Below, piece after piece: positions 33,841 through 37,064 of a DNA stretch of 64,000 bases (position 1 is the stretch's first letter; every line of letters begins with the position of its first letter). Location: assembly GCA_028693235.1 (NCBI GenBank), contig JAQUVW010000002.1, positions 317,298 through 381,297 of the forward strand. The letters are read 5' to 3'. This DNA is from Candidatus Gastranaerophilales bacterium (GTDB lineage Bacteria; Cyanobacteriota; Vampirovibrionia; Gastranaerophilales; Gastranaerophilaceae). The translations under genes were made by a program, and so were the position numbers. Below the pieces are notes generated by a model, which saw only the letters and a program-made list of their open reading frames with translations, was not told where the DNA came from and did no database searches.

Positions 33841-35011
33841 ATATTACCTCGATAATTTTTTCAGCGATTATTTTTTTTGAGTTTTTGTCAATGTGGGTTA
33901 TATTTTTTTTCTTATCAATTATATAAACTTCGTTTTCGTCAGAAGAAAATCCTATATCTTTTTGAGATATATCGTTTGCAATTATAAAATCACATTGTTT
34001 TTTGTCAATTTTAGTTTTTGCATTTTCAATCAAATTTTCACTTTCGGCACAAAATCCTACGACAAGTTGATTTGGGGTTTTATTTTTAGCCGAGTTCGCA
34101 AGGATATCAGGATTTTGAACCAATTCAAGTATGATTTTTTCATTGTTATCTTTTTTTATTTTGTTTTGAGCTTCATCTTTGACTTTATAATCAGAGACGG
34201 CGGCAGCCATTATCAAGGAATCAGCTGTTTTCATGGCATTAGACACTTCTTTAAGCATTTTGTCAGCATTTTCAGCTTTGATAACATTGTAAGGTTTATT
34301 TATGTCGAAAGTGCTTATCAGAGTAACTTCCGCACCTTGTTCAAATGCGGAGTCTGCAAGAGCCAGCCCCATTTTGCCTGAACTATAATTTCCGATGTAT
34401 CTTACGGGGTCAATATTTTCTTTTGTGCCACCTGCAGTTATTATGATTTTTTTACCTATGAGCTTTTTTTTTATTGTTAAGATATTTTTAACAGATTCAA
34501 AAATAGTGTCTATATCGGCAAGTCTGCCTTTTCCTTCGGTTCCGCAGGCAAGAAAGCCGGTTTGGGGCTCTATTATCGTTGTGCCGTTAGCTGTCAGTTT
34601 TTTTATATTTTCTTGGATGAAAGTGTTTTCCCACATCCCAGTATTCATACAAGGGGCCAAAATGGTTGTTTTTTTAAATGCACAAAATATTGAAGTCAAA
34701 AGATTGTCACAAATCCCGTTTGCGATTTTGGAGATGGTATTTGCACTGGCTGGGCAAATTAAAAATACGTCAGCTTCCTCCGCAAGGGAGATGTGCTCGG
34801 GTTTAAAGTCTTCGAAGTCATATTGGTTACAGAAGACCTCGTTTTGACTCAAGGATTGAAGAGTTGTTTTAGTTACAAATTTATAGGCGTTTTCTGTGAC
34901 AACAACTTTCACGTTTGCGTTCGCTTTTTTAAACAGTCTTATTAATTCGATTGTTTTATAAGCGGCTATTGCACCTGTTATTCCGATGAGGATGTTTTTT
35001 CCCGTAAGCAT
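33833..35011 (-). CDS. coaBC: Bifunctional phosphopantothenoylcysteine decarboxylase/phosphopantothenate-cysteine ligase
   Basis: A 392-residue bifunctional enzyme for two successive steps of coenzyme A synthesis. The N-terminal flavoprotein decarboxylase (about 1-175) has GITGAIAAYK, ICPASANTISK and the catalytic APCMNTGMW loop; the C-terminal ligase (about 185-392) has ITAGGTKENIDPVR and NYSSGKMG. It overlaps gmk by 1 base and nif3 by 8. The rpoZ gene that often lies between gmk and coaBC is absent. Confidence 0.97.
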   Translation of the reverse strand: MLTGKNILIGITGAIAAYKTIELIRLFKKANANVKVVVTENAYKFVTKTTLQSLSQNEVFCNQYDFEDFKPEHISLAEEADVFLICPASANTISKIANGICDNLLTSIFCAFKKTTILAPCMNTGMWENTFIQENIKKLTANGTTIIEPQTGFLACGTEGKGRLADIDTIFESVKNILTIKKKLIGKKIIITAGGTKENIDPVRYIGNYSSGKMGLALADSAFEQGAEVTLISTFDINKPYNVIKAENADKMLKEVSNAMKTADSLIMAAAVSDYKVKDEAQNKIKKDNNEKIILELVQNPDILANSAKNKTPNQLVVGFCAESENLIENAKTKIDKKQCDFIIANDISQKDIGFSSDENEVYIIDKKKNITHIDKNSKKIIAEKIIEVIYG

Positions 35012-35571
35012 TATGAATTTCTTTCTTTATTATAAATATCTTGCAAGCTGCATAAAGCTTCTTCAAGGTTATCATTAACTATTTTGTAGTCAAATTTTTC
35101 AGATGCTTTGAGTTCTTTTCTGACAAAATCAAGTCTTAATTGAATAGAGGCTTCATCTTCTGTGTGTCTTCCTCTTAAGCGTTGTTCGAGAATTTCAATA
35201 GATGGGGGCAAAATGAATATAGAAATGGCATCTTTGATTTTTTCTTTAACTTGAAAAGCACCTTGTGTGTCGATTTCGAGAATAATATCGTTGCCGTTTT
35301 TCAAAGAATCTTCAACTATTGATTGTTTTGTACCATAGAAGTGCTCGCTAAAGACAGCCCATTCAAGAAATTCATTATTATTGATAGATTTTTTAAAATC
35401 ATCTTCTGAAATATAAAAATAATTAACTCCGTTAGTTTCGCCGGGGCGAGGGGTTCTCGTCGTTGCAGATACGGAGAATTTGACTGTTGGATTTGCGTCC
35501 ATAAATCTTTTGATTAAGGTTCCTTTGCCGACACCGGAGGAACCTGAGATGATAAATAATTTGCCTTGCAT
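35011..35571 (-). CDS. gmk: Guanylate kinase
   Basis: A 186-residue enzyme phosphorylating GMP to GDP. P-loop SGSSGVGKGTL, GMP-binding VSATTRTPRPGE and YFYISEDDF, and LEIDTQGA are all present. Ribosome site AGGA 7 bases before the ATG. First gene of an operon gmk-coaBC-nif3-exported protein-rsmD. Confidence 0.97.
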   Translation of the reverse strand: MQGKLFIISGSSGVGKGTLIKRFMDANPTVKFSVSATTRTPRPGETNGVNYFYISEDDFKKSINNNEFLEWAVFSEHFYGTKQSIVEDSLKNGNDIILEIDTQGAFQVKEKIKDAISIFILPPSIEILEQRLRGRHTEDEASIQLRLDFVRKELKASEKFDYKIVNDNLEEALCSLQDIYNKERNS

Positions 35572-35766: not shown

Positions 35767-36669
35767 ATGAACTTCTTCAAAAAATCCGAAAATAATGATA
35801 GGTTAGTCCAAAATTTACAAAACACAATTTTAGAAAATCAAGAGCAACTTGCACGTTACATTAATAAATTTCTTCAAAATGAAGAAAAATGGAAACAAAT
35901 TAATTATTTAGTTAAAAATATAAATTCTACTCTTGAAATTTCGGAATTGACTGATGTAATAAGTACTCAACTCGAAAAATTGGTTGGCTCGGAGTTGTGT
36001 AGTATATATGGACTTAACGAAGATAAGCATATTTTAGAACGTAAATATGTTAATGCTCCTATATCCAATGAATGTGTTCAATATATTGATGATTATGTTT
36101 TTGAGAAGAACAAAGAAATAAAATGTTATATTAATTCTGATTTAGAATCTCAAAGAATAAATATGAGAGAATTTATAAAAAACGGTTTAAATTCTTCTTA
36201 TGTTGTTGAACCCATTTATACGGAAAATAGCTTGTCCGCCGTTATTTTCTTATATAAAAAAGGCAATTGGGCTAATGAAGAAGAAAAAAATATTTTACAG
36301 TTGGTTGTTGAAAATATTTCAATGTCTTTGCGAAATTCTAAATTATATGAAAAATTAAAGCAAGCAAATAAGAACCAAGTTGAGTTTATTGCAGGGCTTT
36401 CTCATGAATTTAAAACTCCGTTGAATACAATAATTGGATTTTCTGAATTGCTCCAAAATTCATCGCAGCTTAATCAATCTGAAATAGATAAATATGCTCA
36501 AAACATTTATAATTGTTCAAAGCATTTGCTTAGATTAATGATTGATATCCAAGACGCCTCTATTGCAGAGTCGGGGAATATTAATCTGAATTTTGAAAAA
36601 TTTAATACCAAAACCATTATAAATGATATAGTTGACGAGTTTGAAAGCCTAATGACAAAAAAAGTTTAA
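35767..36669 (+). CDS. Histidine kinase, N-terminal part (GAF and HisKA), ends at a frameshift site
   Basis: A 300-residue open frame: short coiled segment, GAF-like sensor domain (about 45-190), then a HisKA domain with the H-box GLSHEFKTPLNT (His213). It has no membrane segment, so it is a cytoplasmic sensor. The frame ends MTKKV-TAA right after the heptamer A-AAA-AAA; the missing catalytic domain continues in the -1 frame from the next feature. Either a one-base deletion in the A tract (mutation or sequencing error) or slippage joins the two. Weak ribosome site. Confidence 0.75.
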   Translation: MNFFKKSENNDRLVQNLQNTILENQEQLARYINKFLQNEEKWKQINYLVKNINSTLEISELTDVISTQLEKLVGSELCSIYGLNEDKHILERKYVNAPISNECVQYIDDYVFEKNKEIKCYINSDLESQRINMREFIKNGLNSSYVVEPIYTENSLSAVIFLYKKGNWANEEEKNILQLVVENISMSLRNSKLYEKLKQANKNQVEFIAGLSHEFKTPLNTIIGFSELLQNSSQLNQSEIDKYAQNIYNCSKHLLRLMIDIQDASIAESGNINLNFEKFNTKTIINDIVDEFESLMTKKV

Positions 36670-36671
36670 GA

Positions 36672-37064
36672 TTGGAACTTAAATTAATCGATATTTTGAT
36701 AAATGCAGATTCAAAACGGTTTATGCAAGTAATATATAATCTATTAAGTAATTCAACAAAGTTCTCCGATATAGGTGGAGTTATAAAAGTCATAACATAT
36801 TTAGACGGAAACAATTTTGTATTTGAGATAAATAATCATGGTCGTTGTATTGATGCAAAACACAAAAATAGTCTATTTAAGTTGTTTTATCAATGTTCTC
36901 CTTCGCCCAGAGAAAATTATGAGGGTGCGGGGATAGGGTTAGCATTGTGCAAAAAGATTGTTATGATGCACGGTGGAAACATTGATTTTTCTTCCTGCAA
37001 AGAAGATGGCACGACATTTATATTCAATCTTCCTATTAATACTCATAACGTAGTGATAAAATAA
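36672..37064 (+). CDS. Histidine kinase, C-terminal ATPase part in the -1 frame
   Basis: 130 residues continuing the kinase above: N-box RFMQVIYNLLSNSTKFSD and G2 box EGAGIGLALCKK are well kept, and the end TTFIFNLP is typical of HATPase_c. The G1 box, normally D-x-G-x-G-I, reads NHGRCI, so the Asp that holds adenine is Asn and a Gly is Cys; ATP binding is likely weakened. The apparent TTG start is only where the frame is opened by convention; it should be read with the upstream part as one gene of about 430 residues. A dying gene or a pseudokinase. Confidence 0.7.
   Translation: MELKLIDILINADSKRFMQVIYNLLSNSTKFSDIGGVIKVITYLDGNNFVFEINNHGRCIDAKHKNSLFKLFYQCSPSPRENYEGAGIGLALCKKIVMMHGGNIDFSSCKEDGTTFIFNLPINTHNVVIK

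Follow-up and report, generated by a model that had tools for sequence, protein, structure and literature searches.

The window, a stretch of 64 000 nucleotides from a Candidatus Gastranaerophilales genome, carries on its forward strand, at 35767–37064, an interrupted orphan histidine kinase gene of the GAF–HisKA–HATPase type. Its divergent neighbour on the reverse strand is gmk, the guanylate kinase gene (35011–35571), which defines the syntenic locus. The first 300 amino acids of the kinase, made up of a GAF-like region and the DHp (HisKA) domain, are encoded by ORF1 (35767–36669, forward strand), the 3′ end of which reads ATG ACA AAA AAA GTT TAA. The CA (HATPase_c) domain lies in ORF2 (36672–37064, same strand), in the -1 frame, which is open from past the TGA at 36642 to the TAA at 37062, i.e. 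over 139 codons. Because the -1 frame opens only past the stop at 36642, the frame change is confined to the 22 nt (36645–36666, AAGCCTAATGACAAAAAAAGTT) between that stop and the zero-frame TAA at 36667, and the single long homopolymer in this zone is a tract of exactly seven A (36657–36663) in the register A_AAA_AAA. In this assembly, the kinase is certainly divided between two frames. The initial annotation had placed the split at this A-AAA-AAA heptamer, and rightly so, with HATPase_c following in register in the -1 frame; its statement that the stop comes directly after the heptamer has to be corrected, since one GTT codon intervenes before TAA (36667–36669). A candidate TTG start for ORF2 is found 3 nt past the zero-frame stop, at 36672, with no evident ribosome-binding site for it.

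Pfam detects HisKA in ORF1 (2e-15; 36379–36573) and HATPase_c in the -1 frame (2e-21), while a weak GAF-domain match, below the Pfam cut-off, covers 35941–36330. If compared to what is expected of an active histidine kinase, the DHp domain is in order: its H-box (SHEFKTP) is intact and contains the phospho-acceptor His, encoded at 36403–36405. The CA domain falls short of the expectation; the N-box (NLLSNSTKF, 36738–36764) is mostly intact and the G2 box (EGAGIGLAL, 36921–36947) fully so, and the G1 box is degenerate, reading NHGRCI at 36834–36851 where orthologs have D-x-G-x-G-I, a departure already pointed out in the initial annotation. Nor do DHp and CA share a single frame, CA being in the -1 frame. 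The codons found in G1 are AAT at the Asp position and TGT at the Gly position, each of which would be one step away, in the AT-rich direction, from GAT (Asp) and GGT (Gly), respectively. As far as can be judged from these motifs, kinase activity has probably been lost.

Relatives were searched with a read-through protein joining both frames at the A tract, a construct used for comparison only. At least 37 genomes of the family have an ortholog of the kinase in divergent orientation next to gmk, and in most cases next to coaBC too (26 from the loci of one kinase search, ten plus genome G079, locus L167, from further loci). Since all these syntenic orthologs cross the junction in one frame and all have D-x-G-x-G-I, both the frame break and the loss of G1 are peculiar to this genome within the set of syntenic orthologs seen, and the gene thus shows what is expected of a pseudogene, a frame break facing intact orthologs at the same locus. 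The genus of the window is represented by one genome in the comparison set, and the comparisons were made at the family level; a scan of GTDB contigs gave one distant kinase only. Among 29 relatives examined at the DNA level, the aligned A-runs are 3 to 7 long and those of seven occur as GAA AAA AAT, in a different register, so that across syntenic orthologs the frameshift site is conserved neither in place nor in register.

A few other kinases deserve mention. A full-length non-syntenic relative (L156, G036:C48:187221-188414) has an unbroken frame and a G1 box reading NKGEYI; therefore, loss of G1 also happens elsewhere, and this protein is, from its sequence, possibly a pseudo-histidine kinase. 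In genus g6, two gmk-adjacent orthologs (L143 and L145) are about 295 amino acids long and lack the GAF-like N-terminal part, unlike a third locus of that genus (L157), where the long form is retained. A stop flagged within another kinase match of the window's own genome (L011) was considered as an internal break and dismissed, the paralog being a normal open frame of 431 amino acids.

In a tree of gmk and coaBC, the closest neighbour of this genome is genus g41 (support 0.99). The members of this sister genus that were examined have different genes at the gmk-side position, and no kinase match was found in g41 at 1e-40. In four genomes of genus g33, an ORF of 137–150 amino acids stands between gmk and rpmI-rplT (L168:2283-2696, with equivalents at L171, L172 and L201), a place occupied by the complete kinase in other genera. 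It aligns with the end of DHp and with CA only (hhalign probability 92) and is devoid of the N, G1, F and G2 boxes. It is open in all four genomes and appears weakly constrained, because its dN/dS is roughly 0.4–0.5, against ~0.05 for gmk; its sequence makes it a candidate for a stand-alone dead CA domain. In a genome of genus g19 (L193), a tyrA homolog comes directly after gmk with no kinase in between; in the window, a tyrA homolog sits past the kinase. The gmk-side locus is prone to kinase loss.

The kinase itself bears some signs of decay. Of 60 DHp/CA columns without variation among the other representatives, 10 are altered here, including the D and the G of G1, whereas in a comparably divergent ortholog (L028) 6 of 56 are altered, all conservatively. 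Its branch measures 1.19, against 0.42 for gmk, the corresponding values for the stem of the g20 pair being 0.72 and 0.36; the acceleration is mild. The CA/DHp divergence ratio is 1.07, versus 0.78–0.85 in the g20 pair. These values hint mildly that the CA domain was already less constrained. Any decay is young, because the -1 frame has no second lesion and three motifs, the H-box, the N-box and the G2 box, are still intact. The suggestion, first made from the G1 box, that function has been lost gains support from the intact G1 of the orthologs, from the mildly relaxed constraint on CA and from the lack of the gene at this position in the sister genus.

How much weight the heptamer should receive depends on how common it is. 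A_AAA_AAA is among the known slippery motifs (PMC3711429), and at 36657–36663 it is in register. However, the presence of the heptamer carries little weight, because 141 of 361 sampled ORFs of this genome (39%) contain it in register, 185 times in all. When compared to synonymous-codon shuffles, runs of seven A are depleted in all three phases, with observed over expected numbers of 204/268, 132/204 and 185/254, and runs of eight or longer are at about half of the expectation (80/153). Selection directed specifically against -1 slippage was considered and rejected, since the depletion is alike in the three phases: it is A-runs in general that are avoided, not -1 slippage sites in particular. 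A comparable frame-independent depletion was reported for E. coli (PMC4066793). The site is not accompanied by the usual helpers either. A downstream stimulatory structure, which the initial annotation proposed to look for, is not present beyond what shuffled sequences give (z of -0.78, and of +0.69 with flanks), Rfam returns no match of note at the site, and none of the SD-like words GAGG, GGAG, AGGA, GGNGG and AGGKG (PMC4066793) is found in the 17 nt upstream of the tract (TTTGAAAGCCTAATGAC, 36640–36656).

The explanation that we consider probable is that of a decaying orphan histidine-kinase gene, in which the constraint on CA weakened, G1 was lost and one base was recently lost in the A7 tract. 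The ancestor would have been an ordinary GAF–DHp–CA sensor kinase whose gene lay next to gmk. Constraint on the CA domain would have eased in this lineage, with loss of the two G1 residues that are key to the ATP pocket, and the recent one-base loss in the A7 tract would then have parted the DHp and CA frames; we infer the order of these steps. A-runs are natural sites of indels. The expected product would be a 300 amino-acid GAF–DHp protein incapable of autophosphorylation, and ribosome slippage at the A tract would add at most traces of a full-length protein, itself with a damaged ATP pocket. A one-base deletion had been named at the outset as looking just like a programmed -1 event, and it is now supported by the single frame of the syntenic orthologs.

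Another possibility is that the break was introduced at the homopolymer by an error in base calling or assembly; the gene would then in truth be continuous and encode a full-length pseudokinase, or a weak kinase, with a degenerate G1 box. The break does fall in a homopolymer, nothing else is wrong with the frame downstream, the non-syntenic NKGEYI relative combines a degenerate G1 with an intact frame, and sequencing errors are often behind singleton frame breaks whose homologs are intact (PMC3711429). We scanned 464 kb of this genome for frame breaks, in both directions, against the intact ORFs in 1.2 Mb of sequence from two relatives. The kinase came out as the sole split gene among ~167 testable genes, as compared to 2 of ~240 and 0 of ~133 in two control genomes. 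Because only one gene among ~167 is split, the genome is not generally frame-damaged, and an error-prone assembly can be rejected as a general cause. The two candidates in the control genome G072 are at L089:9553-9576 and L097:11194-11198. Moreover, no other break is seen in the testable genes in spite of 436 A-runs of seven or more in the ORFs of the same 464 kb, and an error would have had to hit by chance a gene in which a catalytic motif is damaged as well. The break thus appears to be in the organism and not in the base calls, and an error at this one place is, in our opinion, unlikely.

Recoding and phase variation were also considered. In the former case, -1 slippage of the ribosome on A_AAA_AAA, or slippage of RNA polymerase, would purposely yield both a 300 amino-acid and a full-length form. 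The register of the heptamer, the stop one codon further and the HATPase domain in register in the -1 frame are all as one would wish, and the slippery nature of the motif is established. But the site is conserved in no ortholog, the heptamer is commonplace and shows no specific avoidance in the slippery phase, neither a structure beyond shuffles nor an SD-like word flanks it, and the full-length form would still bear the damaged G1. Even the three best V_VVA_AAG heptamers of E. coli give only ~0.3% frameshifting when stimulators are lacking (PMC4066793). As for transcriptional slippage, selection shows itself in a large proportion of genomes at a run length of nine nucleotides (PMC1088944), and the run here is of seven A. 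A genome-wide survey assigns singleton, non-conserved frame transitions to indel mutation or sequencing error (PMC3711429). We hold purposeful recoding to be very unlikely, and the programmed -1 frameshift put forward in the initial annotation is not supported, given the unconserved site, the ordinary heptamer and the lack of a detectable stimulator; loss of function is favoured over it. Least probable in our eyes is that the A-run toggles the kinase by replication slippage and that the assembly captured the off state. There is indeed a homopolymer within the ORF, in a signalling gene that is dispensable in related genera. However, for a contingency locus a run of seven A would be on the short side, such tracts occur everywhere in this genome, and the on state would probably be inactive too, because G1 is damaged.

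In an AT-rich genome such as this one, A_AAA_AAA occurs in register so often that it does not point to programmed frameshifting unless conservation or a stimulator comes in support. As it stands, the kinase is one more frame-disrupted gene, and mainly a caution. One may speculate, at a probability that we put only slightly above that of phase variation, that the gmk-side kinase is becoming a kinase-dead signalling protein, its DHp and CA parts being made separately by low-level slippage or by a restart at the TTG at 36672, in parallel with g33, in which a stand-alone degenerate CA-like protein is all that is left at this position. If these products were really used, a sensor kinase would have been dismantled stepwise into catalytically dead modules in related genomes.

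DivL of Caulobacter has lost its phospho-acceptor His. The present kinase resembles this repurposed histidine kinase (PMC4211667) in that it lacks one catalytic element but retains the remainder of the kinase core; it differs in keeping the His and losing G1, and in that its degenerate form is conserved in no syntenic ortholog. With the genes known to use programmed -1 frameshifting on A_AAA_AAG or A_AAA_AAA, such as E. coli dnaX and the transposase genes of the IS3 family, it shares an in-register heptamer, a zero-frame stop and an open -1 frame, but not the stimulatory structure, the upstream SD-like element or the conservation among orthologs (PMC4066793). The ‘pseudo-pseudogenes’ rescued by transcriptional slippage, of which tssM of Citrobacter rodentium is an example, are likewise frame-broken genes with an A-run at the break (PMC1088944, PMC4256274); the run of seven A described here is below the nine-base threshold of many genomes, and the present case is known from sequence alone. 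The kinase is also like the singleton frame-disrupted genes, or hypothetical pseudogenes, of the GeneTack analysis, in which a single break is seen when they are compared to intact homologs, neither a conserved site nor a recoding signal is present, and the Pfam domains are intact on either side of the break (PMC3711429). What sets it apart from these singletons is the independent damage to a catalytic motif, and it is because of this damage that a real lesion is favoured over a sequencing error.
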